A DNA stretch of 64,000 nt. Source: Mimachlamys varia. Taxonomy: Eukaryota > Mollusca > Bivalvia > Pectinida > Pectinidae. Of the stretch, positions 8,812 to 63,519 are shown piece by piece. Positions within the stretch are counted from its first letter, which is position 1, and each line of letters starts with the position of its first letter. The stretch is taken from positions 58,198,139-58,262,138 of the forward strand of contig OX392531.1 in the NCBI GenBank assembly GCA_947623455.1. The letters are read 5' to 3'. A model generated the notes under the pieces. The model worked only from the letters and a program-made list of their open reading frames with translations. It did not search any database and had not been told where the DNA came from. The position numbers were made by a program, and so were the translations under genes.

Positions 8812-8875
8812 CTCCTCAGGTAAAACAGTCAAAACCTCCAACAGAAATGGTAGCTGGTGTACATTAGTGCCAAAC
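8812..8875 (-). CDS. TNPO3: TNPO3 exon 6, founder of the 74-bp array
   Basis: One nt completes an Arg codon, then 21 codons run from [10 protein letters not shown] to LTVLPEE. The acceptor is TTCTGTAG and the donor GTAAGT at 8811-8806. The last 37 nt and the donor are the source of the downstream array. Reading into the intron meets a stop within ten codons. Confidence 0.93.
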
Positions 8876-11800: not shown

Positions 11801-14800
11801 CCAAAGGTCAGTCAGTTACTGATTATAAATGTTGTTTTTGCAAATGGTTCTATTATTAAACTGTTGAATTGTTAACTTCTTAATTGTTATTCATTTGGTC
11901 ATATTACAAAGCAGTTATTGCATTTTGTTTTCGGTGTACACGAGACTATACGGACCTGGGCAAGAGTTTGTTCACCTCGGCCTTCGGCCTCGATGAACAA
12001 ACTCTTGCACAGGTCCATATAGTCTCGTGTACACCGAAAACAAAATGCAATAATTGTATAATGGTAAATGGGAATCACATCACAGAGGGATGGTACATGG
12101 GAATCACGTCACAGAGGGATGGTACATTGGAATCACATCGCAGAGGGATAGTACATGGGAATCACATCACAGAAGGTTGGTACATTGGAATCACATCGCA
12201 GAGGGATGGTACATTGGAATCTCATTGCAGAGGGATGGTACATGGGGAATCACATCACAGAGGGATGGTACATGGGAATCACATCACAGAGGGGTGGTAC
12301 ATTGGAATCACATCACAGAGGGGTGGTACATTGGAATCACATTGCAGAGGGATGGTACATTGGAATCACATCGCAGAGGGATAGTACATGGGGAATCTTG
12401 CCATCTACTCTGTACTGTGTTGTAATGGCTGATTGGATATTCTCTCAGGCCAATGTAAAACATTACAGAGAAAATGCTGACAGGCAGCTGCTGACAGATA
12501 GTGTATGTTGTACTAAGACAAAAACTCCCACATCTTTGCTTTTTCAAAGTGCAAGCTTGAAGTATACTACTGGAAATTAAAGACTTAAAGGAAACAAAAA
12601 CAAAACTGCAAAATTAATGATGATTTTTTAACTTTTCAAACAGAGGATTGATTTTTGGAAAGTAAACTTCGAGCATAACATAGCCTACTTGGCCATTTGG
12701 AAATGTCATGTATAGAAAACGAGACTAGGGGGTTAATACTAGACCAGGAAGTGGTACTTACAGTATGGGAATCAGCAGGTAGTTCATGGAAAGAATACTG
12801 TATCTGAAAATTAGAAGTGACATTGTAGTACAAATGATAAAGTGACATTTAATACAAATGACTTCATTGATCATCATCAAAGAGGAGGAGCACTACTAAT
12901 AAACTATTCAATCAAATAGAAGTATTTCTGTGAAAAGGAAAACACTGCCCAGCATGCACTATCTACTGTAAGTAAACTATAAGGTCAAAAATAAATATGT
13001 ATGTTTCAGGTAACATGCCTGAACAAAAAATAGGGTAGGTCGGAAGGCAAATTATTATAATTATTAATTTATATTTGGTAATTGATAATATGCTTCATTT
13101 CTTTAATGCATTTCCACACATTTCAGTGGTTATTAGGTTATCAAGAATAAGGTCAGACTCCCAGGACAGGAAGGGGGTACATTTTATTGAGTTGCTGTGA
13201 TAAATTAATCTTAGTTACATGATGGTGATAAAATTGATAGGGTCGGCAGTAAAAACACACATATTTTTGCTTTTCCTTATTGTGATAATGTATTGTAATA
13301 TTCAAATCTGTATACATACTACACTGTACCCAATCTATTGTATGGTTTCAATAATTGTACAGACAAAGTAAAAAGTTAGATAATAACATCAGTAACAACA
13401 CACTAGCAGTTATAAACATTTCCTTACAGTTACTACATGTATTTCCAATTACAAACTAATTATCCATTATGGTTTTACATCAATGGTCCATCACTACTGT
13501 ACAAGTTAAGATTTACCCAGAGTTCTCTTTAAAAACCTGATGCTGGCAAAAGTAGCCTGTTATTCACCAATTTTGAACTGGCTATTTTTTGGAATTTTAT
13601 ATATATCAACATCACCGAATGTGAAAATTAAACCAGCTATTCTTTCGAAGTCAACCAATTATTGCAAAACTAAGTGAGAACACTGTTACCCCCCTAATAA
13701 CATGATGAACAAAGGTGACAGTCTGAGCTTATCCATACCTCAGGGGAGTACTGTCTGAGCTTATCCATACCTCAGGGGAGTACTGTCTGAGCTTATCCAT
13801 ACCTCAGGGGAGTACTGTCTGAGCTTATCCATACCTCAGGGGAGTACTGTCTGAGCTTATCCATACCTCAGGGGAGTACTGTCTGAGCTTATCCATACCT
13901 CAGGGGAGTACTGTCTGAGCTTATCCATACCTCAGGGGAGTACTGTAACTTACTTTGGTTCTCATGGTCTGTGCAGCAAAGTAACAGGACTCGAGTGTAT
14001 GTTGTTGTCGTAGTAACTGGTCTGATATCTGCCAGGCACACACCTGTGAACATATCAAAAATAATATGTACAATACACTTCAGAAAACCAAAACGTGTAT
14101 GCACAGTTCAAGATTGGCTAAGCAGTGAGAGCCATTTAGCAACACATGTGTGGAAAGTATGGGAAAATTGATTCTAAGCTATATGTTACATGACACATGG
14201 ACAGGGCAATCACCATAGGGTGTCCAAAACCTAGTGGCAGGGCCCTACTAATGTGTGCACTTGTATTAATATGTATGTGTTTGCTATTTGATTACTATTG
14301 GCATCAGAATATAATACTGAATGGAGAACAGTGGAAATGTAGTGTTTTGTAAACAGCAAAGTCCATGTATTGATAGGAAGACAGTTATCATAAATACATG
14401 AAGTTTCAAGAGGAAAGTATACCACATGAAAATACACCCTTTCTTTTGTTTGTTTGCTTGTTATACATGTAATCATTAGTGGATATTATTGTCACCAATT
14501 TACATTTGTGATGTCAACTTTTGTATGATCTCATTGAGTTTGTAATTGTGACTTCTCACGCTTTGTAATGTACTCCAACCAGCCTGCAACTGCACAGTGC
14601 TGATGCCTTATTTTTTATTTTTTTTGGTGAAAACATTTTATTGTGTTTTTAAGAAAGAACAAAACAAAACATAGAAATTCATCTTTCAATCAAACTTGTA
14701 TACAGTCAGTAAAACATTCTTCTTTTCACAAATCTTTTCATCACTATAACATTTATCTGTCCCTTTCATTCATGCACTAAAATTAGCTTTCTTACACAAA

Positions 14801-32310: not shown

Positions 32311-32382
32311 AGGAAAAGTCATATAATTAAGAAACCCTAAAAGTAGTGAATATAAACGTCCAGTCTTCAAAAATAAAAAAAA

Positions 32383-33713: not shown

Positions 33714-34980
33714 ATGGCAAATCACCAATATTCTACCTTAAGTAATATAAATGTAACAATTGAAGGGGTTACAAAATTACTTAAAAACTTGAATCCAGCA
33801 AAAGCTGCGGGTCCGGATAACATCAAACCCAATTTCCTGAAAGAAATGGCCATAGAAATATCACCAATTTTAACCCTTCTCTTCAAAAACTCTTTGGAAT
33901 CAGGCATTGTGCCTGCTGATTGGGAGATGTTTCCCTCAAAAAAGTTACCAAGTATAACCCAGAACCCATATAGTTGTCAGTTCCATCATGACTCATGCAG
34001 ACGACAACAATACATTATATCCTCTTCAACACGGTTTTAGACAATCTAGATCATGTGAAACCCAATTAATAGAATTTATTAAAGATGTTTCGAGTAATCT
34101 GAAAAAACAACAAACAAACTGGTGTTCTTATCCTTGATTTTGCTAAAGCTTTTGATAAAGTCTGTCACGACCTGCTACTCCACAAATTCCATCACTATGG
34201 TATCAGGGGGGGGGGGTTAACACTTGGATTCGAAATTTTCTGTCAGATAGAACACGATCAGTTTTACTCGACGGTGAACAATCTAACTATGTACCAGTTG
34301 TATCAGGGGTCCCCCAGGGGTCGGTCCTCGGGCCGAGTTTGTTCCTATATTATATAAACGATATGCCCCTATGTCTCAGAGCGGTCTTGACAAATTAGCA
34401 AGGAGGGAATAACTGTGGAAAATGGAATTTCACCCACAAAAGTGCAATGTCTTATCAGTCACAAAAAACAAAACCCCTCTAGAATTTAATTACTATCTAC
34501 TAGGACATTGCCTAGAAAACACTGACAAATCTAAATATCTGGGTGTTACTATTCAAGAAGATCTCAAATGGAACTCGCACATTACAAATACCACAAACAA
34601 AGCAAACAAAACAGTAGGATTCAGCGCAACTTGAAAGTAAATTGTAAAAGTATACAAGAGCAAGCCTGCAAATCACTAGTGCGTCCATCTTTAGAATACG
34701 CTTGCTCTGTGTGGGAACCACACATTAAATCAGACATCTATAAACGTAGAGCAGCAAGATTTGTCATTAACCGCTTTCGCAACACCTCAAGCGTTAGTGG
34801 CATGTTATCCAATCTAAACTGGCCCAGCCTCGCAGCCAGACGCAAGGACGTCCGTCTTACTTTATGCTTAAGATCACTCACAACACAACTGCAATTAACA
34901 AAGACCTCTATACTTAACACCACAGTCCAGACAGTCCAGACACTCACACACACAATCATACCAGATTCCTCACTGTAAAA
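33714..34980 (+). pseudogene. Reverse transcriptase remnant of the second LINE
   Basis: Fragments read LNPAKAAGPDNIKPNFLKEM, FRQSRSCETQLIEF, DFAKAFDKVCHDLL (catalytic Asp), VVSGVPQGSVLGPSLFLYYI, then FHPQKCNVLSVTKNK, KYLGVTIQEDLKWNSHI and RPSLEYACSVWEPH. The YADD active-site block is missing between about 34370 and 34420. At least five frame changes or stops are present. Confidence 0.82.
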
Positions 34981-38549: not shown

Positions 38550-38600
38550 ATGGATGCAGACGGCCTACCACTCGTAGGTCCTGGAGTGGATTACACTAAG
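38550..38600 (+). CDS. WASHC3: WASHC3 exon 1
   Basis: Seventeen codons, MDADGLPLVGPGVDYTK, with donor GTAGAC and phase 0. They match the conserved N-terminus of CCDC53 residue by residue except for a few changes. Confidence 0.93.
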
Positions 38601-41600: not shown

Positions 41601-44600
41601 TTATATATTTTTTTGTGGGGAGGGGGTTCAATCGGAACGTCCAGGGTATATATCTGAGTTACAACAATAAACTTTTTTACTTTTTTTTTTAATATTATCA
41701 TTAATGTGAGCTTTAGATATTTCATAAATTCTTCAACTTCGTCTTTGCTAGTTACCTAATACAAATAACCCCTGAGGTCATCACAGGTGTGAAATGACTT
41801 ACCTGTGATATCAAAGGGATGCGCGGCGGGTAGAAGTAAAAAGATGATCGGTATATGCAATTATAATCTTATATATTATATGGTCAGTTAACACATTAGT
41901 AAAGGAATACCATAGATTGACACCCTGTCAGATTTATCAGATAATAATTAAATGTACATTGCGATACACATAATTACGCACACTATACATATATTTTGCA
42001 TTCACTGGAAAAAATATGAATTTGTAAAAAAAACGTCAGTAGTGCAATCGTTGCAATGGACAGGTAAAAATTGTCACCCAGATGGAGTTTAATAAATCAG
42101 CGATATTTCTTTCTTCAAATTCCTGAATTATCACACGCAGAGATCGACACGGGAATACTATCGAAGTCCGCCTTTTCTGAGACAAATCTAAGATGGGAAT
42201 GTAAAAATTGTTTGCATTTCTGAGCTGACGTAAAATAAATGAAAATAAGAACATTCGTATTAACATTTATCTACCATGATCCTGGGCAGACCTTGTAATT
42301 TAACTCGTAAAAAGACATGCTTCATATTATTATACATATTATGAATTCCCTGTCATAATTGTACCGTGTTAGTATACCCCGTGTTAATATATACATGATG
42401 TAATATATTATGTATATTTATGGGGTTCTGATTTCGTTTGTTGGTATTTAAACCGAATACATATAGAATTTACAATAACATTTTTAGATAGTTAGATTGT
42501 ATTTCCCGTTTTTTCGAGTCAAAGTAACATATGTGTGTTGACAATGTTTTCTGTGCTGATGTCGCTTTCCCTGGTATGTCTACATGTCCGTCTCTGAAAG
42601 TGACGAATAATTCTGTAGCTCTATAAACATGATTTTTTTATGTGGATAAAATATCAAGGCAAACTCTAATACCAACTACATCACTATATGTATCTGGCAT
42701 GCTGAATGTTGCCAAAATTAAAGTATTTTAGGTTGGTAATGAGCGGACCTAATATAAGAATGTAAGCAGGTAAGGTTAGTCCTTGTACTAAGATGACGTC
42801 ACGTGACCAACGAACTCATTATCTCTAGTTGCGCTTGAGAGGTCCAAGGCGTATGACCCGAATTTCATGTCAATGCAAGAAAACCAGACCCCGCGCAAAC
42901 GTCAGGGCATGTTACACCTGTATAGAACGTTAACGTCTAATTGCTGTAGTCCGAAGGGTTCTGATTATATTGGGATGGCTAGCAGCTCGTTACTCCTGTA
43001 TGTTAAGTTGCTGGTGATTGACCCAGTCCTGCAGTATAGCTACTTTTGTGTAAATAATCTGTCCATTAGTTAGGGGATTTCTACCATTACCCCATCATCG
43101 GAAACCCGCGGTACACTACTCTGACATTTGCATCCCGTGGGCTAAAATGGAAAGAAACTCTCGTTTTCGTACTAAAATAGTAGTCAATCATATCGATAGT
43201 TTGATCCGTGACTATCTACAGCCGGGACATCAAGTCGGGGTATCCCGTTTCATTTGTAGTACCGCCTGTCAACAAAACTTGTCGATTGTGTTATAATTGT
43301 GTCGATTGTGATTAAAATATAAGATCCTACTATACGACGATTGACAGAAATATACTTGTCGTGGTCACGGTAAAATGATCTAACAGATCAGTGTCATGAG
43401 AAATGACCATTCTGATTGGTCGAAATCTCTGAATAAACTTCTATTCTGGGAAACGGAAGGTTTACGCCGATTCTGGCCCATGGGATGCAAATGTCAGAGA
43501 AGTGTACCGTGGGTTTCCGACGATGCCATTACCCCTGGGCTGCCTTAGATTCGGTCATTCTTGCTGATTTCATGATTCATTCATAATTTCTATCTTCTCA
43601 AAACGCATATGGTATACGTTGTAGATCTAGAGGTATCATCTGTTCTTCCTATACATTCACATGTTCCATTTAATATTTGTAGGTAGAGGCGATACATCAG
43701 AAACGAACTCTGGCTTTTATGAACCACTTTGTGAGCCATACTGCAAGCTTCTTGAACCGTTTTTCTTGTGTTTGTGAGGAGAAGCTTGATCACATGTCAA
43801 GTCGACTGCAGCAGCTGGAGATAACAATGAACATTCTAGAAGCTAAGGTAAACCCACTGTGTTAACCATCATATGATGCAAACACATTTATAAGTTAACA
43901 ATTATTTTTTCTAACATTAACATAGAAATGGCACTTTTAACTTGATTTTACTAACTAGTGGTGTACCATGTTCTGATTGATCAAGTTACTCGAACATTTG
44001 TCATTTAAAGCAATTGACCAATTCATCAATTACAATTTTCATGACTGACTTTTCTCGGTTGTATGGAGTTATCTCCCCTAGGTTTGTTAATATTGAAAAA
44101 TATTCAGTAAACAATTTTTAAATGAAAAAATAACAAGTCACATGTTAATTGATTAAAACCATTTATACTGCATTATATAGACACGTTATATATAAATGAA
44201 AAAAGGTAAAATATAAAAACTACGCATCTGTATACTGTACCTATTCAAATGTCCCTGGAGTTACATTTTTTCTTCATTGGGTTAGGGTTAGGGCTAACCC
44301 TAATTTTAACTTGTTATCCCACGACCACAAAGTTGGCGGGGATATACAAATGGGTTCTGTCTGTCTGTCCTTTCGTCTTTCTGTCTTAGACTTCGTAGAC
44401 TTATTACCTGAACCCCTCACTCAAGTTCGATCATCGGCGAATTTTGCGCATATTTAATAAGGCTGCTATGAACTTAATGGCTGATTGCTTTCTGCATGAT
44501 TCTTTTTGAAGGAATGATCGGATTTTGATGAAATGAAACTTGCTTGGTAGACTTATTACCTAAACCTTTCGCTCAAGTTCGATCATCAGCATATTTAATA

Positions 44601-47600
44601 AGGCTGCTGTGACCTGATTGGCTGATTTGAACTTCAGATTGGCTGATTGCTTTCCGCATGTTTGGTAGACTTTTTACCTAAACCTCTCGCTCAGGTTCGA
44701 TCATTGGCATATTTAAGGAGTCTGCTGTGACCTGATTGGCTGATTGCTTTCCTCACGACATCTTTTGAAGGAATGATGGGATTTTGATGAAACTTGCTTG
44801 GTAGACTTATTACCTGAATCCCTCACTCAAGAACGATCATCAGCATATTCCGCACATATTTAATAAGGCTGCTCAACTGATCTCTTTCCGCACGACATCT
44901 TTTGAAGGAATGATGGGATTTGATTAAACTTGCTTGGTATACTTATTACCTAAATTCCTCGCTCAAGTTCGATCATCAGCATATTCCGCACATATTTAAT
45001 AAGGCTGCTCAACTGATCTCTTTCCGCACGACATCTTTTGAAGGAATGATAAGATTTTGATGAAACTTGCTTGGTAAAGTAAGACTTATTCCCTATACCC
45101 CTTGTTAAAGGTCAATCAGAGCATATTTAATGAGGCTGCTGTGACTTGCTTGGCTGATTGCTTTCCGCACAATATCTTTTGAAGGAAAGATAAGATTTTG
45201 ATGAAACTTGCTTGGTAGACTTATTCCCTATAGCTATATCCCTCAACAAGTTCGATCAGAGGCATATTCCGTGCATATTTAATGAAGCTGCTGTGAACTG
45301 ATTGGCTGATTGCTTTCTGCATGATATCGTTTGAAGGAACTGTCAAATTAAAATTCATGAGACTTGCTTGGAAGACTTATTACCTTACACAAGTTTATTA
45401 AGTCAGGTTTAGATGAGACTTGCATGGACCCTCCTTCCATTTCAGTTACCTCCTCTAAATATAGTTTATTGAACAGTCATAGTCTTTGTTTTACTTATCG
45501 TCAATTTATTTCTATTTTTGCAGATCTGATTAATGTAATAAATGGCTTTAATACAAAAGGGCAGAAGGTCATTGTTAAAAATAATATATATATTGAATTA
45601 TTATTCGTTGTGCTGGTTACTGTCATTGGAACTGCCGGGAATGTAGACAACTATTGGTTCTAAATGATATGCCATGTGTCTTGCTTTTATGCATAATGCC
45701 CACTTTAATGTCATGTATTTTTACGATATTTTCATGGGTGGGGGTTCTTGTCGACTTTGTTCTTCTACACATGCTTGCCAACATTTAGAAATTTCTGTCA
45801 GGTTGATATTCTGACGTAATAAAAACATCATGATGATGGTAAAGGAAATGACTCAAGCAAGTCAAATATAAAAAATATAAATAAAAAAGGCTATTTAGTT
45901 AGCTACAATGTTATTTTATTACCTTAATTTTACAAATGCCTGTTCTTTATGAATTTCGAAAAATACAAATTATTTGTATTGAAATTTGGAATATTTTCCT
46001 TCATTTTTGGTCATTGAGGGAAAATACGACACTCTTTAGTTAGGGAAAACTTCCTGTACACCAAAGTAAATCCAAGCTAAAAGATCACTCAGCACAGACT
46101 TATTAAATATTCCAGTTAACATCCATACCTGGGCTAGAGAACGTTACTGCTCCCGCCAGTGGTACTGCACCACCACCAGAAGCCCAGCAAGCTCCTCAGT
46201 CAACTACCCCCGCTGCTCCTCAGTCAACTACCCCCGCTGCTCCTCAGGAAACAGTTAGCCAGCAAGGTGTCCCTTCAGTAAGTATATAGCTGGGCCTGTT
46301 ATATTACCAGGCAGCCAGCAAGGTGTCCCTTCAGTAAGTATATAGCTGGGCCTGTTATATTACCAGATAGCCAGCAAGGTGTCCCTTCAGTAAGTATATA
46401 GCTGGCCCTGTTATATTACCAGACAGCCAGCAAGGTGTCCCTTCAGTAAGTATATAGCTGGGCCTGTTATATTACCAGCAGCCAGCAAGGTGTCCCTTCA
46501 GTAAGTATATAGCTAGGCCTGTTATATAACCAGGCAGCCAGCAAGGTGTCCCTTTAGTAAGTATATATCTAGGCCTGTTATATTACCAGCAGCCAGCAAG
46601 GTGTCCCTTCAGTAAGTATATAACTGGGCCTGTTATATTACCAGACAGCCAGCAAGGTGTCCCTTCAGTAATTATATAGCTGGGCCTGTTATATTACCAG
46701 GCAGCCAGCAAGGTGTCCCTTCAGTAAGTATATACAGTCATGTAGCTGGGCCTGTTATATTACCAGACAGCCAGCAAGGTGTCCCTTCAGTAAGTATATA
46801 GCTGGGCCTGTTATATGACCAGACAACCAACAAGGTGTCCCTTCAGTAAGTATATAGCTAGGCCTGTTAAATGACCAGACAGCCAGCAAGGTGTCCCTTC
46901 AGTAAGTATATTGCTGGGCCTGTTATATGACCAGACAACCAACAAGTGTCCCTTCAGTAAGTATTTAGCTGGGCCTGTTATATTACCAGACAACCAGCAA
47001 GGTGTCCCTTCAGTAAGTATATAGCTGGGCCTGTTATATTACCAGACAGCCAGCAAGGTGTCCCTTCAGTAAGTATATAGCTAGGCCTGTTATATTACCA
47101 GGCAGCCAGCAAGGTGTCCCTTCAGTAAGTATATAGCTGGGCCTGTTATATTACCAGGCAGCCAGCAAGGTGTCCCTTCAGTAAATATATAGCTAGGCCT
47201 GTTATATGACCAGGCTGCCAGGAAGGTGTCACTTCAGTAAGTATATAGCTGGGCCTGTTATATTACCAGACAGCCAGCAAGGTATCCTTACAGTAAGTAT
47301 ATAGCTGGGCCTGTTATATTACCAAACAGCCAGGAAGGTGTCCCTTCAGTAAGTATATAGCTGGGCCTGTTATATTACCAGACAGCCAGCAAGGTGTCCC
47401 TTCAGCAAGTATATAGCTGGGCCTGTTATATTACCAGACAGCCAGCAAGGTGTCCCTTAAGTAAGTGTATAGCTAGGCCCTGTTATATTACCAGACAGCC
47501 AGCAAGGTGTCCCTTCAGTAAGTATATAGCTGGGCCTGTTATATTACCAGACAGCCAGCAAGGTGTCCCTTCAGTAAGTATATAGCTGGGCCTGTTATAT

Positions 47601-50600
47601 GACCAGACAGCCAGCAAGGTGTCCCTTCAGTAAGTATATAGCTGGGCCTGTTATATTACCAGACAGCCAGCAAGGTGTCCCTTCAGTAATTATATAGCTG
47701 GGCCTGTTATATTACAAGACAGCCAGCAAGGTGTCCCTTCAGTAAGTATATAGCTGGGCCTGTTATATGACCAGACAGCCAGCAAGGTGTCCCTTCAGTA
47801 AGTATATAGCTGGGCCTGTTATATTACCAGACAGCCAGCAAGGTGTCCCTTCAGTAAGTATATAGCTGGACCTGTTATATTACCAGACAGCCAGCAAGGT
47901 GTCCCTTCAGTAAGTATATAACTGGGCCTGTTATATTACCAGACAATCAGCAAGGTGTCCCTTCAGTAAGTATATATACATGTAGCTGGGCCTGTTATAT
48001 GACCAGACAGCCAGCAAGGTGTTCCTTCAATAAGGGATATTGATTACGATACACCCTATTTGATAAAAATCAATAAAACCCCATAGTGAATGGATGATGA
48101 TTAAAATACCCTCTGTATGATATATTAGTGAATGGATGTTGATTAAAATACACTCCATGTTATACACTACCGGTGATACACTCCATATGATACACTCCAT
48201 GTGATACACTTCATGTGATACACTCCATATGATACACTCCATGTGATACAAACCATTTGATACACTTTGTGTGATACACTCCATATGATACACTCCATAT
48301 GATACACTCCATGTGATACAAACCATTAGATACACTTTGTGTGATACACTCCATATGATACACTCCATATGATACACTCCATGTGATACACTATGTGTGC
48401 TTCACTTCATATGATACACTCCATGTGGTACACTTTGTGTGATACACTCCATATGATACACCCCATGTGATACACTACGTGTGATACACTTCATATGATA
48501 CACTCCATGTGATACACTTTGTGTGATACACTCCATATGATACACCCCATGTGATACACTACTTGTGATACACTCCATGTGATACACTTTGTGTGATACA
48601 CTCTAGGTGATACACTACATGTGATACACTTCATATGATACACTCCATATGATACACTCCATGTGATACACTCAATGTGAGACACTCCATGTGGTGCACT
48701 ACGTGTGATACACTCCATATGATACACCCCATGTGATACACTTTGTGTGATACACTCCATATGATACACCCCATGTGATACACTACTTGTGATACACTCC
48801 ATATGATACACTCCATGTGATACACTACGTGTGATACACTCCATATGATACACCCCATGTGATACACTACGTGTGATACACTCCATATGATACACCCCAT
48901 GTGATACACTTTGTGTGATACACTCCATATGATACACCCCATGTGATACACTATGTGTGCTTCACTTCATATGATACACTCCATGTGGTACACTTTGTGT
49001 GATACACTCCATATGATACACCCCATGTGATACACTTCATATGATACACTCCATGTGATACACTTTGTGTGATACACTCTATATGATACACCTCATGTGA
49101 TACACTACGTGTGATACACTCCATATGATACACCCCATGTGATACACTACTTGTGATACACTCCATATGATACACTCAATGTGATACACTCCATTTGATA
49201 CACTCCATATGATACACTCCATATGATACACTCCATGTGATACACTCCATGTGATACTGTTGGGAATAAGGATCCGCGGCGCGATTTAGCCTTTTGATCC
49301 AGCTTGCAGTGAGAGGTAATATATCTTACAACGACATTCTTCTCGTAACATTTCTTTATTCAACTTTTTTACAAAAGATTTACACAAGGGAGACAAATGG
49401 AACAGATAAGATGTATGATTATCTCCCTTTCACCGTGGATGGTTTACATATGCATGAACAAAATAATATATATACACACCTGTATATATAACATCCCCCC
49501 CTACAAAACAAAATTGGTCCCCAATTTTGGAAAACATCCACAGAGAAAAAAAAAAAAGTAGGAGATAAGGAAAATTGTAAAATAAATTGAAACACATTTG
49601 GTAAATAGCGGTTGATTATGTGTAAATCAATTGGCACGGTCATCTTAATTAGCCTGAAACTACAGTGACACTTATGACTTTGTACTATGAAAACTATGTA
49701 GTGTATTGGAATATAAGGTATTATTTGACTAACATCAATCCTTAACCAGCGAGATGTGGAACTCTAATATGTATACTGTTCAGTTACAGAAAATATTTCA
49801 TTTTCTTATCGATAAGACATGAAGAACTTATTGTTCAAACTTCATACACACTCACATTCTTACTTGCAAAATCTGGTACCAAGAATCTAAAACTTGCATA
49901 CACCTTAACAACATGTTCAGAACAAAAGTCATAATCTAGTCTCATCAACACCACATTTTTCTGGATAGTAAATCCAACATAGCTATTTGGAATTTCATCA
50001 AGTACAGCAAGATATCACTATTAGCAGTAGTTAAATGTAGGCAATTAATATTTCATGGTATGGGAATAAGAATATAATTCCAGCATAATTCAATTTCGTA
50101 AAGAATTCAATCCATGTAAATGCCATACAATTTATCTGATCAATTAGGATTATTCATTATAATAACACTGAACAATCTCCAAAATGGAATAACTCGAGAA
50201 AACTCATGAACTATGATAACAATAAACTGCAAGCTATATAAACAATGTAATGATTAATGTGTATACAAATAACACATCAAAATTATCAATGAAGGAGAAC
50301 GATTAAATCTGTATAAAGTACCTTATTCATGAAATGACACAAAATTGACCATTAATTGAAAATGAGATCAAGAATTGCAAGGTCAAAGATATAATTTGTT
50401 CATAAAAAATTTGACCATTACTTGAAAATGAGATCAAGAATTGCAAGGTCAAAGATTTGATTTGTTCATGAAATAATGGTTATTAAATTTGATATAATTC
50501 ATTAAGGAATTTTATCTTGCATGTATGAAACAGATTTTAACAGACTTAAAAGTTCATAATATTTGACTTAGAATATCCATCACTGGAAGATCCACAAAAC

Positions 50601-56600: not shown

Positions 56601-59600
56601 ATGGACAATATCCCGTAATGGTCTATATCCCGCCGGATATGGGGTGGACCCGGGTTGCGTAGAAATATTCCGCTGGGGCTGAATTGGTTTGGAAGTGCTG
56701 AAGTGGTCAACTGCTTCTGTATTCACATTATATAGTGGCCCATAATAGTCTGGAGTAGGCATGGTAGGAGTCTTGGGTGTTGTAAAAAGCTTACGGCCCA
56801 AATTGTAACAGTCACTGAAAGGAGCACTGAGCAGTGGATTAGAATTAGGAGAATTCATTTTGAGGGAAAAAAGTTATTTCTGTTCCTCACGTTGTATTTA
56901 ATCCCATATATGATAACGGTGCAGCAACACTAATAGCAAATACAACACGAAGTCCAAAAAATAGTAGATGACATCACCGTCATAAATTGTTTACAAATAA
57001 TGCATGGAGGCCGCCATCTTGTCGGTCACGTGAACGATTCCCAAAAAAATCACGTGGTCCAGAAAGGTAATGCGCACTTATTAGTTCGGCAAATAGGCCT
57101 ACTAAACACATCTGATATATATATAACGAATGTCACAAAGATCGCTAAGTAGAATGCATCAAATGTCACAAATGTTAAATGAAATGGCAATTCACAATTT
57201 TACTGGAACATATATGATAAAGTCTACGCCAACAAAACCATGTGCCGATGTGCGGCAAATTTGGACCGCCGCCATTTTCCCACTCGAAATCGAGCATCAC
57301 CTCTAAAAGTTCATATATAGAACACGATCGCCAAACAGTTGACCGAACGAAATTGTCGGAACGTCGTTTGTATCTTTGGGATTCTCCACCATGTTGGGAA
57401 TAAGGATCCGCGGCGCGATTTAGCCTTTTGATCCAGCTTGCAGTGAGAGGCAATATATCTTACAACGACATTCTTCTCGTAACATTTCTTTATTCAACTT
57501 TTTTACAAAAGATTTACACAAGGGAGACAAATGGAACAGATAAGATGTATGATTATCTCCCTTTCACCGTGGATGGTTTACATATGCATGAACAAAATAA
57601 TATATATACACACCTGTATATATAACAATACACTCCATGTGATACACTTTGTGTGATACACTCCATATGATACACTCCATATGATACACTCCATGTGATA
57701 CACTCCCATGTGATACACTCCATGTGATACACTTTGTGTGATACACTCCATATGATACACTCCATGTGATACACTGTGTGATACACTCCATATGATACAC
57801 TCCATGTGATACACTTTGTGTGATACACTCGATATGATACACTCCATATGATACACTCCATGTGATACACTATGTGTGATACACTCCATGTGATACACTC
57901 CATATGATACACTCCATGTGATACACTCCCATGTGATACACTCCATGTGGTACACTCCATGTGATACAGTCCATGTGATACACTCCATGTGATACACTCC
58001 ATATCATACACTCCATGTGATACACTATGTGTGATACACTCCATGTGATACACTCCATATGATACACTCCATGTGATACACTCCCATGTGATACACTCCA
58101 TGTGATACACTCCATGTGATACAGTCCATGTGATACACTCCATGTGATACACTCCATATGATACACTCCATATGATACAATCCATGTGATACACTTTGTG
58201 TGATACACTCCATATGATACACTCCATGTGATACACTTTGTGTGATACACTCCATATGATACACTCCATGTGATACACTCCATATGATACACTCCATGTG
58301 GTACAATCCATGTGATACAGTCCATGTGATACAGTCCATGTGATACACTCCATGTGGTACAATCCATGTGATACACTCCATGTGATACACTTTGTGTGAT
58401 ACACTCCATATGATACACTCCATGTGATACACTCCCATGTGATACACTCCATGTGGTACAATCCATGTGATACAGTCCATGTGATACAGTCCATGTGATA
58501 CACTCCATGTGGTACAATCCATGTGATACAGTCCATGTGATACACTCCATGTGATACACTCCATGTGATACACTTTGTGTGATACACTCCATATGATACA
58601 CTCCATGTGATACACTTTGTGTGATACACTCCATATGATACACTCCATGTGATACACTCCATATGATACACTCCATGTGGTACAATCCATGTGATACAGT
58701 CCATGTGATACAGTCCATGTGATACACTCCATGTGGTACAATCCATGTGATACACTCCATGTGATACACTTTGTGTGATACACTCCATATGATACACTCC
58801 ATGTGATACACTCCCATGTGATACACTCCATGTGGTACAATCCATGTGATACAGTCCATGTGATACAGTCCATGTGATACACTCCATGTGGTACAATCCA
58901 TGTGATACAGTCCATGTGATACACTCCATGTGATACACTCCATGTGATACACTTTGTGTGATACACTCCATATGATACACTCCATATGATACACTCCATA
59001 TGATACACTCCATGTGATACACTCCATGTGATACACTCCATGTGATACACTTCATATGATACACTCCATGTGATACACTCCATGTGATACACTTCATATG
59101 ATACACTCCATGTGATACACTCCATATGATACACTCCATGTGATACACTCCATATGATACACTCCATGTGATACACTCCATATGATACACTCCATGTGAT
59201 ACACTCCATGTGATACACTCCATATGATACACTTCATATGATACACTCCATGTGATACACTCCATGTGATACACTCCATGTGATACACTCCATATGATAC
59301 ACTCCATGTGATACACTCCATATGATACACTCCATGTGATACACTCCATGTGATACACTCCATGTGATACACTCCATGTGATACACTACATGTGATACAC
59401 TCCATATGATACACTTCATATGATACACTCCATGTGATACACTCCATGTGATACACTCCATGTGATACACTCCATGTGATACACTCCATGTTATACACGG
59501 GATCACACTCCATGTGATACACTCCATGTGATACACTCCATGTGATACACTACATGTGAAACACTATGTGTGATACACTCCATGTGATACACTCCATGTG

Positions 59601-62600
59601 ATACACTGTGTGATACACTCCATGTGATACACGGGATCACACTCCATGTGATACACTCCATGTGATACACTCCATGTGATACACTACATGTGAAACACTA
59701 TGTGTGATACACTCCATGTGATACACTCCATGTGATACACTCCATGTGATACACTCCATGTGATACACTCCATGTGATACACTATGTGTGATACACTCCA
59801 TGTGATACACTCCATATGATACACTTCATATGATACACTCCATGTGATACACTCCATGTGATACACTCCATGTGATACACTCCATGTGATACACTCCATG
59901 TGATACACTCCATATGATACACTCCATGTGATACACTCCATATGATACACTCCATGTGATACACTCCATGTGATACACTCCATGTGATACACTCCATGTG
60001 ATACACTACATGTGATACACTCCATATGATACACTTCATATGATACACTCCATGTGATACACTCCATGTGATACACTCCATGTGATACACTCCATGTGAT
60101 ACACGGGATCACACTCCATGTGATACACTCCATGTGATACACTCCATGTGATACACTACATGTGAAACACTATGTGTGATACACTCCATGTGATACACTA
60201 CATGTGAAACACTATGTGTGATACACTCCATGTGATACACTCCATGTGATACACTCCATGTGATACACTCCATGTGATACACTCCATGTGATACACTCCA
60301 TGTGATACACTCCATATGATACACTTCATATGATACACTCCATATGATACACTCCATGTGATACACTCCATGTGATACACTTTGTGTGATACAGTCCATG
60401 TGATACACTCCATGTGATACACTCCATGTGATACACGGGATCACACTCCATGTGATACACTCCATGTGATACACTCCATGTGATACACTCCCATGTGATA
60501 CACTCCATGTGATACACGGGATCACACTCCATGTGATACACTCCATGTGATACACTCCATGTGATACACGGGATCACACTCCATGTGATACACTCCATGT
60601 GATACACTCCATGTGATACACTCCCATGTGATACACTCCATGTGATACACTTTGTGTGATACACCTATATGATACACTCCATACACGGGATCACACTCCA
60701 TGTGATACACTCCATGTTATACACTCCATATGATACACTCCATGTGATACACTACGTGTGATACACTCCATGTGATACACTCCATGTGATACACTCCATG
60801 TGATGCACTCCTATATGATACACTAAGTATGCTATTTGTGCTTTGAGTGTTTATATTATTGTTGATGTGTTGACAGCCACCAGAGGACAAGGAAGCGGCC
60901 CCTCCCCCTCCCGAGGAAGAGAAAACGGACAACCCTGTGTCTAAGGACCCTCGCTACGCAAAATATTTCAAGATGCTACAAGTGGTAAGAATGAACTGAA
61001 CAGATAGAACCCAATTTCTTACACATTGTTTTAAATTAAATTTTGGACATGTTGAGTGAAGTGTTGAACAAGTTGAGTGACATGTAAGATGGACATGTTG
61101 AGTGACATGTAAGATGGATATGTTGAGTGAAGTGTTGAACAAGTTGTGTGACATGTAAGATGGATATGTTGAGTGAAGTGTTGAACAAGTTGAGTGACAT
61201 GTAAGATGGACATGTTGAGTGACATGTAAGATGGACATGTTGAGTGACATGTAAGATGGACATGTTGAGTGACATGTAAGATGGACAAGTTGAGTGACAT
61301 GTAAGATGGACATGTTGAGTGACATGTAAGATGGATATGTTGAGTGAAGTGTTGAACTAGTTGAGTGACATGTAAGATGGACATGTTGAGTGACATGTAG
61401 GATGGACATGTTGAGTGACATGTAAGATGGATATGTTGAGTGACATGTAAGATGGACATGTTGAGTGACATGTAAGATGGACATGTTGAGTGACATGTAA
61501 GATGGACATGTTGAGTGACATGTAAGATGGATATGTTGAGTGACATGTAAGATGGACAAGTTGAGTGACATGTAAGATGGATATGTTGAGTGACATGTAC
61601 GATGGACAGGTCGAGTGACATGTAAGATGGACAGGTCGAGTGACATGTAAGATGGATATGTTGAGTGACATGTAGGATGGACATGTTGAGTGACATGTAG
61701 GATGGACATGTTGAGTGACATGTAGGATGGACATGTTGAGTGACATGTAAGATGGACAAGTTGAGTGACATGTAAGATGGACAAGTTGAGTGACATGTAA
61801 GATGGACATGTTGAGTGACATTTAGGATGGACATGTTGAGTGACAAGTTGAGTGACATGTAAGATGGATATGTTGAGTGAAGTGTTGAACAAGTTGAGTG
61901 ACATGTAAGATGGACATGTTGAGTGACATGTAAGATGGACATGTTGAGTGACATGTAAGATGGACATGTTGAGTGACATGTAAGATGGACAAGTTGAGTG
62001 ACATGTAAGATGGACATGTTGAGTGACATGTAAGATGGATATGTTGAGTGAAGTGTTGAACAAGTTGAGTGACATGTAAGATGGACATGTTGAGTGACAT
62101 GTAGGATGGACATGTTGAGTGACATGTAAGATGGATATGTTGAGTGACATGTAAGATGGACATGTTGAGTGACATGTAAGATGGACATGTTGAGTGACAT
62201 GTAAGATGGACATGTTGAGTGACATGTAAGATGGATATGTTGAGTGACATGTAAGATGGACAAGTTGAGTGACATGTAAGATGGATATGTTGAGTGACAT
62301 GTACGATGGACAGGTCGAGTGACATGTAAGATGGACAGGTCGAGTGACATGTAAGATGGATATGTTGAGTGACATGTAGGATGGACATGTTGAGTGACAT
62401 GTAGGATGGACATGTTGAGTGACATGTAGGATGGACATGTTGAGTGACATATAAGATGGACAAGTTGAGTGACATGTAAGATGGACAAGTTGAGTGACAT
62501 GTAAGATGGACATGTTGAGTGACATTTAGGATGGACATGTTGAGTGACAAGTTGAGTGACATGTAGGATGGACATGTTGAGTGACATGTAAGATGGACAA

Positions 62601-63519
62601 GTTGAGTGACATGTAAGATGGACAGGTCGAGTGACATGTAAGATGGACATGTTGAGTGACACGTAAGATGGACAAGTTGAGTGACATGTAAGATGGATAT
62701 GTTGAGTGACAAGTTGAGTGACATGTAGGATGGACATGTTGAGTGACATGTAGGATGGACATGTTGAGTGACATGTAAGATGGACAAGTTGAGTGACATG
62801 TAAGATGGACAAGTTGAGTGACATGTAAGATGGACATGTTGAGTGACATGTAAGATGGACAGGTCGAGTGACATGTAAGATGGACATGTTGAGTGACACG
62901 TAAGATGGACAAGTTCAGTGACATGTAAGATGGATATGTTGAGTGACATGTAAGATGGACATGTTGAGTGACATGTAAGATGAATATTCTTTAAGTGAAG
63001 GGTGAATGTACATTATTGCTCATAACAGTTTTATTCGTAAATCTATGTATCTATGTATAATAGTTTTATTATAATAGTTTTCTGGGAAGGAACTTAACAA
63101 AGTTTACTTTGATATTTGGCTGAAATAAAATGTTAAACAGAACGTCCTGTTTAATTAAATCAGAGTTAATATGAAGCAGAACTCATTGTTCTTGTTAAAT
63201 CAAATCAGAACCAGAGTTAAATGTGAAGCAGAATTCATTGTCCTTGTTAAATTAAACCAAAACCAGAGTTAAACTCATTGTTCTTGTTAAATTAAATCAG
63301 AAACAGAATTAAATGTTAAGCCGATCTCGTAATTCCTGTTTTATTGTACCAGACCTAGAACCAGAGTTAAAAGTGAAGCAGATCTCATTAACTTCCATAA
63401 ACAGTTATATGTAATGTTTGTAACAGTTTAGTAATATCTGTTTTACTTATATAGGGAGTGCCTGAAGCAGCAATCAGACCAAAAATGAAAATGGAGGGGC
63501 TGGACCCAGACTTTCTAAG
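38550..63519 (+). CDS. WASHC3: WASH complex subunit 3 (CCDC53), five exons; last exon past the right edge
   Basis: WASHC3 is a small coiled-coil subunit of the WASH complex, which activates Arp2/3 to build branched actin on endosomes and drives retromer-linked sorting. Exons 38550-38600, 43683-43847, 46116-46277, 60877-60984 and 63455-63519 join in frame with GT/AG introns, encoding about 184 residues; the animal protein has roughly 190-200. Diagnostic stretches are MDADGLPLVGPGVDYTK, then KRTLAFMNHFVSHTASFLNR and ITMNILEAK (trimer-forming helix), SIPGLENV, KDPRYAKYFKMLQV and KMKMEGLDPDFL. The start has G at -3 and +4. The acidic C-terminal tail is expected in the next exon. Introns are very long for so small a protein and are filled with arrays and a retrotransposon. 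The identification rests on recalled family similarity. Confidence 0.94.
38601..39418. other. WASHC3 intron 1, first part
   Basis: No gene or clear repeat. Short G-rich phrases (ggggcccggt) near 38880 and 39240 suggest an old repeat. I see nothing else. Confidence 0.5.
39419..39650 (+). mobile_element. tRNA-derived SINE, copy 1
   Basis: A tRNA-like head has an A box (TGGCTCAGTTGGTAGAG at 39491) and a B box (GGTTCGATTCC at 39530-39540), then ggcactcgacaggaat and a T-rich segment. It lacks a foldable anticodon stem after divergence, so it is a SINE, not a tRNA gene. A second copy follows 290 bp later. Confidence 0.75.
39690..39890 (+). mobile_element. tRNA-derived SINE, copy 2
   Basis: This repeats the layout of copy 1: ctctgtcactcagctaacgg, A box (TGGCTTAGTTGGTAGAG), B box (GGTTCGAATCC at 39830-39840), then ggcactcgacaggaatgtg. 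The leading region aaaaggagcaggtaggtgtg also matches copy 1, so a unit of about 290 bp is tandemly arranged. Confidence 0.75.
40120..40245 (+). mobile_element. 5S rRNA-like fragment, probably a 5S-derived SINE
   Basis: gtggtcagtagttggatggg, followed by tgaccgcctg (40144-40173), matches the 3' half of 5S rRNA (internal promoter C-box region). The 5' half and the true 3' end of 5S are not recognisable, so a functional gene is unlikely. A CATCAT microsatellite follows at 40255-40275. Confidence 0.55.
40870..40970 (-). mobile_element. tRNA-Ser/Leu-like SINE head
   Basis: On the minus strand the A-box-like TTAGTCGAGTGGTTAACAC and the B box GGGTTCGATCCC are 42 bp apart, with a paired CCGGCC..GGCCGG arm between. 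The sequence continues as ordinary DNA without the CCA-end structure, so it is a SINE-like fragment and not a gene. Confidence 0.6.
40971..43079. other. WASHC3 intron 1, middle part
   Basis: About 2.1 kb of AT-rich intron with no coding similarity, RNA gene or array. Confidence 0.55.
43096..43525. mobile_element. MITE with TIRs of about 55 bp
   Basis: catcggaaacccgcggtaca on the left and tgtaccgtgggtttccgacg on the right are inverted copies. The symmetry runs through ctctgacatttgcatccc to the inner edge. The interior is about 300 bp without an ORF. The outer boundaries and target duplication are not certain. Confidence 0.75.
43683..43847 (+). CDS. WASHC3: WASHC3 exon 2 (coiled-coil core)
   Basis: Fifty-five codons from VEAIHQKRTL to MNILEAK, with acceptor ATTTGTAG and donor GTAAAC. 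The exon encodes the long conserved helix (FLNRFSCVCEEKLDHMSSRL) that assembles with other WASH subunits. Confidence 0.95.
43848..44330. other. WASHC3 intron 2, first part
   Basis: AT-rich intron with a short gttagggttagggctaaccc palindrome near 44281. Nothing codes. Confidence 0.55.
44330..45395. repeat. Diverged 100-180-bp tandem repeat in WASHC3 intron 2
   Basis: At least six copies of a unit carry gatgaaacttgcttggtaga, then cttattacct, then aagttcgatcatcagcatat, then ttaataaggctgctgtgacc and gattgctttccgca. Copies differ by internal deletions, so spacing varies from about 110 to 180 bp. Confidence 0.85.
45396..46115. other. WASHC3 intron 2, last part
   Basis: No array or coding similarity. 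The 99-codon ORF at 45364-45663 shows no family features and is judged random. Confidence 0.55.
46116..46277 (+). CDS. WASHC3: WASHC3 exon 3 (proline-rich linker), founder of the 56-bp array
   Basis: Fifty-four codons from LTSIPGLENV to QQGVPS, with acceptor TATTCCAG and donor GTAAGT. A 24-bp in-frame tandem duplication encodes PQSTTPAA twice. The last 21 nt and the donor are repeated about 31 times downstream. Confidence 0.93.
46278..48035 (+). repeat. 56-bp array copied from the WASHC3 exon 3 / intron 3 junction
   Basis: About 31 units follow exon 3. Each contains the last 21 nt of exon 3 (agccagcaaggtgtcccttc plus a), the donor GTAAGT and the first 35 nt or so of intron (atatagctgggcctgttata, ttaccagac). 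Most keep GTAAGT; a few read GTAATT or GTAAAT. The exon-derived part is in the exon's reading frame up to the donor. Intron retention meets TAG four codons past the junction. Confidence 0.95.
48036..48169. other. Transition between the 56-bp and 14-bp arrays
   Basis: A short region holds two copies of gtgaatggatg.tgattaaaatac, about 48 bp apart, before the 14-bp satellite becomes regular. Confidence 0.7.
48170..49257. repeat. 14-bp satellite, left block
   Basis: The unit is GATACACTCCATGT, with variants catatg, ccccatgtg, tacgtgtg and ttgtgtg. Triplets of variants form a 42-bp higher-order unit. Because 14 bp shifts the frame every unit and none of the three minus frames has a stop, long spurious ORFs appear. 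The array is interrupted at 49257 by the Ty3/Gypsy element and resumes at 57628. Confidence 0.97.
49258..49493 (-). repeat. 3' LTR of the Ty3/Gypsy element
   Basis: 236 bp. The plus-strand boundaries are TGTTGGGAATAAGG and TATATAACA, giving TG..CA ends. It abuts the polypurine tract on its right. Confidence 0.95.
49494..50659 (-). other. Non-coding 3' region of the Ty3/Gypsy element
   Basis: About 1.17 kb between the end of pol and the 3' LTR, AT-rich. A direct repeat of gaccattaattgaaaatgag / gaccattacttgaaaatgag with aattgcaaggtcaaagat lies at 50347-50460. No env-like ORF is present. Confidence 0.75.
50660..51313 (-). pseudogene. Integrase C-terminal region with GPY motif, after an in-frame stop
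   Basis: The frame continues past a TAA (51316-51314). KLKYQYVGPYVVQTIQ resembles the GPY/F module of the integrase C-terminal domain. A hydrophilic Ser-rich tail follows, ending LCGEPAQNAIWVRPSSLNQK. The 186-codon open frame starts at 51220. No chromodomain is recognised. Confidence 0.75.
51314..51634 (-). pseudogene. Integrase continuation in a shifted frame
   Basis: The frame MNKGRTNWEVVLSSVTFAMN, with the conserved STGYSAFEVLYGQRPKYPL, is the segment that normally follows the integrase core. It overlaps the end of pol at ATGA, in a different frame, and ends in a premature TAA. The break is a frame shift relative to pol. Confidence 0.85.
51631..55761 (-). CDS. pol: Pol polyprotein (protease, RT, RNase H, integrase core), Ty3/Gypsy
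   Basis: The 1376-codon frame contains, in order: an aspartic protease (LLDSGSSITVM, about residue 102); reverse transcriptase (PYRLPPDKKDV near 390, CCDFRFLNSQ, MPMGLK-like LRLPMGLKTAPNSF and YLDDVLIT near 560); RNase H (from about 670, catalytic Asp in AVDTSSKGIG, Glu in KLELLGVV, Asp in ECDHQAL); a long spacer; and integrase. The integrase has an H-H-C-C finger (HDSPMGGHGG, CVECQQ) and a catalytic triad (QVDSFG, ISDRGTEF, ACERTH) with 35 residues between the last two. It overlaps gag in the -1 frame, so expression by -1 frameshift is likely. Oddities are an apparent deletion of about 30 residues at the RNase H start and a truncated integrase end. Confidence 0.93.
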   Translation of the reverse strand: MVSFGKPESSEDRPARSLGRTINRASPRHRSPSPLPWREKLYHERLNSSDDCDSIQTDISDNTSDSTSFSDGELPEVTCGQKAKFMYYPVDFKSVKVAALLDSGSSITVMSKSFFDNLPQVCKGPVTVSNTSVLVANNNLVHVFGTARVKGRTPYGTHTFHVHLLENTSHPFIVGTGYMMTKGIVIDFCKGTYSALGNTKKKVKVKCSRSFEVPPNTELIIQGKIPKNTLAGLQGISHASKCFLKSGLLLAKSVSTIPCHRAIPLRLINPTNAPIHIYKGTVVADFVLVDEDYCILPMKNVEKAYCNNVQPGQSAESTADVDEPNSSNFEKFCSIFSIGDNLSETQVKDINKCIYDNKDVFVTDANPNLGYSKLVEHEIHLIPGFVSKHQRPYRLPPDKKDVLRTQLDELLQQGVIAPVSESESVPITSPIVLVAKRKKPGSDVLQGTKESHLRSYRFCCDFRFLNSQTQDFRYNIPDIQDLTESFTKSVPRYITSIDMSSGFFQMGISERSSQYTAFNTCYGTYKFLRLPMGLKTAPNSFQMLMDKVLQGLTFKSVLCYLDDVLITSPTFEQHIIDINNVLNRFRQAGLKLGPKKCQFGVDKCVFLGHEISQHGIRPPADRVACIEHYPSPKNAKELKRALGLLNWFRKFIPNYSVIASPLYLLLKKGVKFSWTSEHCAVDTSSKGIGYMLYQVYDGSSHVVRFGSKGLNKWQQSYGPTKLELLGVVTAVTDCSSYVRGTHVLVECDHQALRPLLQNRLKGAIYERWVAILQQFDVEITYKPAKQMVVPDALSRCHPADKLEVMDSSPDNSDPHFPSVVEKVPAITLPDGYSLSNLLRDRPLQTNNIVMPAMPSVLLPDPLYDYDADTEEDVVSAKNRKCVKRSKRISCHTSKNSNPSVVAEGCRTSMNLNPSVADEGCRTTMNLNPSVDDEGCRTTMNLNPSVDDEGCRTTMNLNPSVDDEGCRTTMNLNPSVDEGSPSTVGTLYTSTDRDSNRDKYNLSTDVDNVLDETELQSTDIDSVMCDKYLQSTDKDSSSEMKYLFTTDIDSSNFDEGSSVHDRHPVERDKSTTNLDSWHSESDVQLSETDTATVQPGDSIGEGSNSRSSFELFGKTNTEMGNLQRADPEFHSIYVYLQDGTLPESQKDARSVLLKSADFILMDLVLYHSRVSKAVRTKDMSKFQLALPQTFVSTVLHIYHDSPMGGHGGITDTLDKIKESYFFPKMASIVSDFTRSCVECQQRKLTQSHTKNGIIAYPTPSEPFQVWQVDSFGPLPLTPSGKSYVLTAVDMFSRYIYTISMASDDSLTVASALFTMFTTFGVCNTLISDRGTEFTGKVTRELCRLLDIKQEFTPSFVHHCLGACERTHATIAAKLNLT
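52820..53080 (-). repeat. 45-bp repeats in the pol spacer
   Basis: About six copies of a 45-bp unit encode the 15-residue repeat DDEGCRTTMNLNPSV in frame, between RNase H and integrase. A second, looser series of STD.DS motifs follows (about 52800-52600). Both lie in a spacer of roughly 380 residues, much longer than usual for the family. Confidence 0.9.
55695..56858 (-). CDS. gag: Gag protein of the Ty3/Gypsy element
   Basis: The 387-residue ORF is the structural protein that forms the virus-like particle. Residues 100-280 or so match the retrotransposon gag core (FLKEFESYVIFNGLVSD, LVGPALVWYNQLSD, DFHSQIWEKGHKLL, NKFIEGLPPKLAMFVQ). Two zinc knuckles follow: CYSCGGAGHIQRDC (about 325) and CQLCCQMGHPATDC (about 353), both C-X2-C-X4-H-X4-C. 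The ORF is intact and ends inside the pol overlap. Confidence 0.92.
   Translation of the reverse strand: MNSPNSNPLLSAPFSDCYNLGRKLFTTPKTPTMPTPDYYGPLYNVNTEAVDHFSTSKPIQPQRNISTQPGSTPYPAGYRPLRDIVHRMEERQISSQPSVVLPTDSVTLKKFGGYSHECGEKFLKEFESYVIFNGLVSDTQRTIAAFHLHLVGPALVWYNQLSDVSKFSWKSIEADFRAQYINISALDPSLIRESAVFDSLRLGPTQLIEDFHSQIWEKGHKLLKPERDMINKFIEGLPPKLAMFVQLSRCTSFKETLQVARTGEAWGYRQLPTTLENSQNSRSLAEEVNHLSSVVEQLVVDTARLHPAPPSLPVNRPQQLSDKPCYSCGGAGHIQRDCCWSRNGPSQPPLQCQLCCQMGHPATDCSWFHSGNRNPPRTDRRVPSDGR
56859..57391 (-). other. 5' leader of the Ty3/Gypsy element with primer-binding site
   Basis: About 530 bp between the 5' LTR and gag. The primer-binding site TGGTGGAGAATCCCAAAG starts at 57391 (minus strand). 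The matching tRNA could not be assigned with confidence. Confidence 0.75.
57392..57627 (-). repeat. 5' LTR of the Ty3/Gypsy element
   Basis: 236 bp, identical to the 3' LTR except for one base. It is followed (minus strand) with no gap by the TGG that starts the primer-binding site. Confidence 0.95.
57628..60835. repeat. 14-bp satellite, right block, with higher-order structure
   Basis: About 225 units of GATACACTCCATGT. Higher-order blocks recur: a unit of about 360 bp with the order tttgtgtg, catatg, cccatgtg, gtacaatcc, gatacagtcc repeats around 58190-58960. A gatacacgggatcacactcc variant recurs seven times or so between 59490 and 60700. Minus-strand frames of up to 601 codons are repeat translation. 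Confidence 0.97.
60877..60984 (+). CDS. WASHC3: WASHC3 exon 4
   Basis: Thirty-six codons from PPEDKEAAPPPP to KDPRYAKYFKMLQV, with acceptor TTGACAG and donor GTAAGA, phase 0. KDPRYAKYFKM is the most conserved motif of the C-terminal half. Confidence 0.95.
61045..62985. repeat. 25-bp satellite in WASHC3 intron 4, about 77 copies
   Basis: Unit: gacatgttgagtgacatgta plus agatg. Variants are gacaagttg, gatatgttg and gacaggtcg, and a compound agtgttgaacaagttgagtg unit marks the left end. A block of about 700 bp is duplicated (compare 61340-61850 with 62045-62550). Minus-strand ORFs of 523 and 622 codons are repeat translation. It starts about 60 bp after the exon 4 donor. Confidence 0.97.
63140..63400. 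repeat. Four diverged copies of a 60-65-bp repeat before WASHC3 exon 5
   Basis: The words aaccagagttaaa, gtgaagcagaa, tcattgttcttgttaaat and aaatcagaa recur in order about four times with substitutions and small deletions. Confidence 0.8.
63455..63519 (+). CDS. WASHC3: WASHC3 exon 5
   Basis: Twenty-one codons plus 2 nt run from GVPEAAIRPKM to GLDPDFL, with acceptor TTATATAG and donor GTGATT. This matches the conserved GVP..AI..KM..EGLDPDLL stretch. The split codon continues in an exon outside the window. Confidence 0.93.

Follow-up and report, generated by a model that had tools for sequence, protein, structure and literature searches.

The third exon of WASHC3 in the scallop Mimachlamys varia ends inside a minisatellite in which the end of the exon, its splice donor and the start of the intron recur in tandem. 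How could such an array arise across an exon–intron junction, how can the gene carry it, and is this junction one of many? We address these questions in a 64,000-nt stretch of chromosome 5 (the window; C5:58198139-58262138, contig OX392531.1 of assembly GCA_947623455.1) and in exons beyond it; coordinates are window positions unless prefixed C5. Our preferred reading, to which we assign a probability of roughly 0.7, is that the array is a mirage-type minisatellite founded by exon 3, and that duplications are born or kept preferentially at or just downstream of 5′ splice sites (donors), where they are tolerated and undergo neutral turnover.

A donor-spanning minisatellite in WASHC3

Tandem Repeats Finder (TRF) reports an array with a period of 56 bp and 31.5 copies (92% matches, score 2986) at 46257-48034 on the forward strand, within 3 nt of the span originally predicted from the sequence (46254-48035). 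Unit-by-unit alignment resolves 31 full units followed by a degraded 32nd, each unit consisting of 21 nt of exon and 35 nt of intron; the array begins within the last 21 nt of exon 3, and the copies all lie downstream, inside intron 3. Both methods thus agree with the predicted arrangement of about 31 units at 56-bp spacing, each with 21 nt of exon, GTAAGT and about 35 nt of intron, and the predicted identity of the exon was upheld by alignment to scallop WASHC3. The exonic 21 nt within the unit are AGCCAGCAAGGTGTCCCTTCA, encoding Ser-Gln-Gln-Gly-Val-Pro-Ser. An exact GTAAGT is present in 27 of the 31 units, the rest carrying GTAATT (twice), GTAAAT and GCAAGT.

The six exons of WASHC3 join in frame with no internal stop, and splicing from the first donor would leave mRNA and protein unchanged. 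A TAG begins 10 nt into intron 3, and any later array donor would truncate the protein. Scored with a consensus matrix, 26 downstream donors equal or exceed the authentic one; position, not strength, must therefore decide, and the cell probably has to choose the right splice site among dozens of near-identical ones.

The exon as founder of the array

In a protein alignment, exon 3 ends in QQGVPS here, QQDVPS in Mizuhopecten, QQGVPP in Pecten and QQGVPQ in Ylistrum. As this end is shared across scallop genera, its coding role is older than their divergence, and the array is secondary. The original prediction had named dispersal of the 56-bp unit elsewhere in the genome as the observation that would argue against founding by the exon, and we looked for it: allowing up to 3 mismatches, a 30-base core of the unit has 30 matches in the genome (975,302,275 bases, 71 contigs), all 30 inside the array at C5:58244398-58246115. 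The core read backwards, as a control, has 0 matches genome-wide, and in the 342 kb examined the core is absent outside the WASHC3 array. Given an exon end conserved in three other scallop genera and a unit core confined to this locus, the array is best read as founded by exon 3, as had been proposed. The converse, capture of a pre-existing satellite by exon 3, found no supporting point and is very improbable given the confinement of the core and, at the protein level, the shared exon end.

Further arrays at exon ends

TNPO3, the neighbour of WASHC3, carries similar arrays. Under a standard array definition (period of at least 10, at least 3 copies), six donors of the two genes are spanned: those of TNPO3 exons 6, 12, 13, 17 and 18 and of WASHC3 exon 3. 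The TNPO3 arrays include 74 bp x 21.6 at exon 6, 51 bp x 3.8 at exon 13 and 38 bp x 56 at exon 18; at exon 12, a 27-bp unit in about 275 copies opens intron 12 and extends over 7.3 kb (C5:58180733-58188020; window -17405 to -10118). Exon 17 was counted via a 30-bp TRF row. The prediction that the WASHC3 unit is unrelated to the TNPO3 unit agrees with a longest common word of 7 nt (E 0.70).

Additional exons were sought among arrays elsewhere with a strong donor in the unit. Of the 11 candidates inspected, three span a coding exon end and eight showed no recognisable exon on inspection. The three are TNPO3 exon 21, whose array is truncated by the edge of the sequence examined, and two consecutive exons of a DENN-domain gene at C5:53.92 Mb, 4.3 Mb away, which match Pfam DENN profile positions 2-74 and 77-115; upstream of the first of these, 292 nt were examined. 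The prediction had counted two cases about 38 kb apart, a number that proved too low, two further cases lying at C5:53.92 Mb. A third exon of the DENN gene (dDENN) has no array within 100 nt. Two galactosyltransferase genes (Glyco_transf_7N), with exons chosen by open-frame size and motif, contribute five donors, none of them spanned, with arrays at 2 nt and 98 nt and three further off; for the last exon, with a donor gap of 121 nt, both ends were assigned by hand.

We rejected the idea that arrays lying just past donors are decayed mirages, as only one of the eight tested (seven within 100 nt of the donor, one 185 nt away) resembles its own junction. This one, past TNPO3 exon 11, outscores all 300 shuffles, but its score is also attained by 14 of 134 units from other arrays.

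Arrays at donors and acceptors

In TNPO3 and WASHC3 together, 6 of 25 donors and 0 of 25 acceptors are spanned; when arrays within 100 nt are included, the counts are 12 and 3. We compared these counts with a simulation in which the 24 intron arrays were placed randomly in their own introns, with 40 nt into exons allowed, over 20,000 trials. Random placement yields 1.02 spanned donors (P = 1.5e-4 for the six observed) and 3.55 donors spanned or near, and 0 of the 20,000 trials reach 12. Acceptors are at chance (0 against 1.03 spanned; 3 against 3.53 spanned or near), and the donor side is the closer one in 13 of 15 array-bearing introns. With the two introns known beforehand excluded, 4 donors are spanned against 0.87 expected (P = 0.0076) and 10 are near against 3.44; another array definition gives 6 spanned against 1.19 (P = 6.5e-4). 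Across all exons of the five genes sampled, an array spans 9 of the 34 donors but none of the 33 acceptors (Fisher 0.0021). A further 8 donors and 4 acceptors, unspanned, have an array starting no more than 100 nt away, which brings the totals spanned or near to 17/34 and 4/33 (Fisher 0.0013). The earlier suggestion that exon 3′ ends attract arrays therefore holds in the sampled genes, as an excess at donors over random placement.

Several points weigh against this interpretation. The sample is not neutral: 26 of the 34 donors come from two adjacent genes that were chosen because of this finding, two of the nine spanned cases had been known from the start, and it was the array scan for donors that brought all three added spanning cases to notice, although exon 21 had previously been mapped. 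The added exons alone give 5 of 9 donors and 1 of 8 acceptors (P = 0.13). At TNPO3 exon 17 the true unit is 80 bp in about 2.3 copies, a duplication more than an array. Under the strictest definition (period of at least 20, at least 5 copies), 4 donors are spanned against 0.73 expected (P = 0.003), and exclusion of the two known introns leaves 2 against 0.72 (P = 0.15); proximity under the same restriction stands at 8 against 2.83 (P = 3e-4). When 2 copies suffice, 1 of 25 acceptors is spanned too. The simulation, moreover, presumes uniform and independent array placement, and use of the first donor in WASHC3 is something that we infer.

Donor-like sequence is also found within array units more generally. 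Outside the two genes, 6 of 70 and 5 of 70 units on the two strands have a donor score of at least 8, against 2.3 and 2.4 after shuffling; within them, the figures are 3 of 25 on the sense strand (0.8 expected) and 0 of 25 on the antisense strand (0.7 expected). GTAAGT triples number 135 in the 342 kb, against 3 for TGAATG; the permutation GAATGT reaches 57, which shows that a handful of arrays can dominate counts of this kind. The optimal donor 9-mer CAGGTAAGT occurs 30,635 times genome-wide and the pattern read backwards 5,463 times. Among the first 100 sites listed, all on C1, 68 fall into 6 of the 38 loci, those that hold 3 or more sites. Since the sites are not linked to exons, we treat this clustering as a lead and do not count it as proof.

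Constraint, turnover and alternative explanations

One may postulate that arrays are simply tolerated, without any bias at birth: in a region that is about half minisatellite they may form anywhere, and the donor cases would be the edges that selection permits. This is the strongest competitor, and we consider it a serious possibility that is nonetheless clearly the less probable one. Arrays make up 45.7% of a 253-kb stretch and, within the 25 introns, 55% of the sequence, and 3-kb samples on C5, C2 and C9 are 43%, 0% and 100% array. The donor is also scattered within the unit (exonic fraction 0.19-0.77), which argues against a fixed cut site. As uniform placement, however, tolerance leads one to expect an array within 100 nt of about 3.5 donors, against 12 observed, and because acceptors are at chance and not clearly depleted, the asymmetry is mainly a donor excess.

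A second alternative is that selection keeps the copied donors, for U1 recruitment, for protection of a long intron from premature polyadenylation or for regulated alternative splicing. Retention of GTAAGT in 27 of 31 copies would fit, as would the 275 copies of a GTGAGT-type unit at TNPO3 exon 12 and the length of WASHC3 intron 3 (14.6 kb). The pattern of substitutions speaks otherwise. Across the 31 copies in WASHC3 the donor 9-mer shows 7 changes, a number undercut by 24 of 56 equally wide windows; donor columns are changed in 8 of 287 positions against 49 of 1475 elsewhere. Over eight arrays pooled (the edge of DENN exon B being set one base short), donor columns are changed in 5.2% of positions against 3.7% elsewhere, an excess due to position +4 of the TNPO3 exon 12 donor, which departs from consensus in 104 of 275 copies; with exon 12 excluded, the values are 43/1277 (3.4%) and 230/5785 (4.0%). 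Conservation of the donor columns does not exceed that of the remaining unit, so there is no indication of selection for extra donors, and we regard an adaptive array as improbable. The original description of the donors as largely conserved is accurate as a count, but this conservation reflects only a young array. The overall pattern has the look of neutral minisatellite turnover. We also sought a polarity of growth and rejected it, divergence from the first copy being flat along five arrays, and saw nothing obvious by way of microhomology at the exon-side edge of nine arrays judged by eye (TNPO3 exon 17 with the wrong period).

The units might instead serve as in-frame 15-nt micro-exons (CAG before CAAGGTGTCCCTTCA, GTAAGT after), each adding Gln-Gly-Val-Pro-Ser; the full CCAG-CAAGGTGTCCCTTCA-GTAAGT block is kept in 19 copies and the phases fit, but neighbouring micro-exons would be separated by introns of 41 nt, which is very short by the standards of animal splicing, and repeated QGVPS appears by eye in 0 of 11 other aligned WASHC3 proteins, which makes this reading highly unlikely. 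An assembly artefact has a similarly slim chance: tandem arrays can be mis-sized, but at 1.8 kb this one is well within HiFi read length. Its copies also differ among themselves, and the available part of the assembly report gives a HiFi assembly of quality value (QV) 64.4 (PMC11252643).

A proposed origin and its relation to known systems

Under the reading that we prefer, the array would have started as a short tandem duplication that happened to take in the last 21 nt of exon 3, the 5′ splice site and 35 nt of intron, and would then have expanded to about 31 copies, all within intron 3. In this genome, 5′ splice sites and the sequence immediately downstream of them may be where short duplications preferentially arise or persist. 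Such duplications would be tolerated if the upstream-most donor stays beside the intact exon, its use leaving the frame unchanged and the copies spliced out. Later growth and homogenisation would reflect the usual turnover of repeats; the copied donors show no sign of being under selection. The region of the 5′ splice site could be made prone to duplication by co-transcriptional U1 binding, polymerase pausing or R-loops, and breakage or template switching near it during transcription would fit. More tentatively, at somewhat less than even odds, we suggest that scallop 5′ splice sites are genome-wide hot spots of minisatellite birth, with perhaps a quarter of exon ends carrying competing donor arrays and as many abutting one, a strict first-donor rule, and birth coupled to co-transcriptional events at the donor.

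The closest known counterpart is in amphioxus, where tandem repeats across exon–intron boundaries, termed mirages, are described in Adh3 and the globins BflGb6 and BflGb9 in the part of the report available (PMC3087553). The same part relates that both boundaries are affected, that reverse-transcription PCR (RT-PCR) data suggest undisturbed regular splicing, and that mirages may feed intron gain (PMC3087553). Shared with WASHC3 are a boundary-spanning tandem unit, AG/GT splice signals in many copies and an intact coding exon, and the units there are likewise minisatellite-like, 10-72 bp in Adh3 and about 150-160 bp in the globins (PMC3087553). The WASHC3 unit spans the boundary, its copies carry splice signals (27 of 31 with GTAAGT), and the exon is kept in an intact six-exon frame with the copies in the intron; by the features testable from sequence, it is a member of the mirage minisatellites.

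The two systems also differ. In the present sample, and under the standard array definition, only donors are spanned (none of 33 acceptors), whereas both boundaries are involved in amphioxus, and copy numbers are 3 and 6 units for BflGb6 against 31 in WASHC3 and 275 in TNPO3 (PMC3087553). The host here is a bivalve in which about a quarter of the sampled donors are spanned, and the amphioxus case concerns a few genes. The mirage kind itself is already known; what the present evidence adds is its frequency, its bias towards donors and its copy numbers. A topical search of an incomplete literature collection returned no report of exon-junction arrays in molluscs in the titles and abstract openings found.

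The Rogers model, in which introns are gained by tandem duplication of an AGGT segment, likewise duplicates a segment carrying splice signals, and arrays of this sort are the raw material that it needs, as far as the accessible parts of the sources describe it (PMC3087553, PMC4974935). The copies here differ in lying inside an existing intron; no new intron was identified, and intron positions across species were not compared. Human subtelomeric variable number tandem repeats (VNTRs), in the available part of their description, resemble the present case in occupying a minisatellite-rich chromosome end, the window lying 159-223 kb from the end of C5 (PMC7608644). The association tested here, by contrast, is with donors and not with the chromosome end.

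What was a curiosity of a few amphioxus genes thus appears frequent and donor-biased in a mollusc. If this is true genome-wide, it would supply many natural experiments on how the spliceosome settles on a single donor when dozens are nearly identical. It would also offer a concrete hypothesis on the birthplaces of minisatellites and ample raw material from which tandem duplication could yield new introns.

Gene models and the minisatellite landscape

TNPO3 and WASHC3 are head-to-head neighbours (window 16466 and 38550), with TNPO3 on the minus strand, and the best matches of the proteins of the window are scallop proteins. For TNPO3, 21 exons were mapped with an Argopecten protein as guide, the last exons lying beyond the sequence examined; joined, the mapped exons have no internal stop. 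CCDC53, the Pfam family of this WASH subunit, matches exons 2 and 5 of WASHC3, and exon 3 by itself has no Pfam match. Batillaria and Potamilus have consecutive locus tags for the two genes, which suggests an old linkage. The coding minisatellite of exon 3 (Table 1) is not duplicated in Mizuhopecten (P0001) in an alignment judged by eye.

Table 1 Features of the TNPO3–WASHC3 region, in window positions.
Feature	Position	Strand	Basis or remark
TNPO3 74-bp x 21.6 array spanning exon 6 donor	7250..8848	-	TRF and exon map; exon at 8812-8875
TNPO3 32-bp x 7.1 array, not junction-spanning	13721..13946	-	TRF; 7 nt past end of exon 2 (13954-14043)
WASHC3 exon 1	38550..38600	+	Joined reading frame
WASHC3 exon 2, Pfam CCDC53	43683..43847	+	Pfam E 1.5e-18
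WASHC3 exon 3, 162 nt, phase 0 at both ends	46116..46277	+	Alignment to scallop orthologues; donor at 46278
Coding 24-bp minisatellite within exon 3, STTPAAPQ, 2.4 copies	46191..46247	+	TRF; distinct from donor array
56-bp x 31.5 minisatellite across exon 3/intron 3 donor junction	46257..48034	+	TRF, unit alignment, genome-wide core search
Authentic donor GTAAGT of exon 3	46278..46283	+	Equalled or exceeded in score by 26 array donors downstream (consensus matrix)
14-bp minisatellite in intron 3	48148..49257	+	TRF; shortly downstream of donor array
Second array of same 14-bp unit	57628..60824	+	TRF; ends 52 nt short of exon 4
WASHC3 exon 4	60877..60984	+	25-bp array 61044-62982 starts 59 nt past donor
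WASHC3 exon 5, Pfam CCDC53	63455..63519	+	Pfam E 4e-06; 24-bp array starts 93 nt past donor, 63613 to beyond window
WASHC3 exon 6	65614-65713, just outside window		Joined reading frame

Eight 10-kb samples taken 0.3-4.5 Mb from the end of C5 are 23-98% array, the two furthest being the lowest (38% and 23%), and two of three interior 3-kb samples are array-rich; a purely subtelomeric explanation is not clearly supported. Over 33 samples of about 10 kb, roughly half of the distal 4.5 Mb of chromosome 5 is minisatellite, and three 10-kb stretches (L008, at C5:58272139-58282138, L030 and L026) are 94-100% tandem array.

Mobile elements also contribute to the region. The two intron 3 arrays of the 14-bp unit ATACACTCCATGTG flank a retroelement-type open frame (reverse transcriptase, RNase H and integrase) at 51634-55767 on the minus strand, and they are possibly one array split by insertion. 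Between TNPO3 and WASHC3 lie two open frames of the non-LTR (non-long terminal repeat) type on the plus strand, at 27383-30459, with endonuclease and reverse transcriptase by Pfam, and at 31305-34975, judged from translations only.

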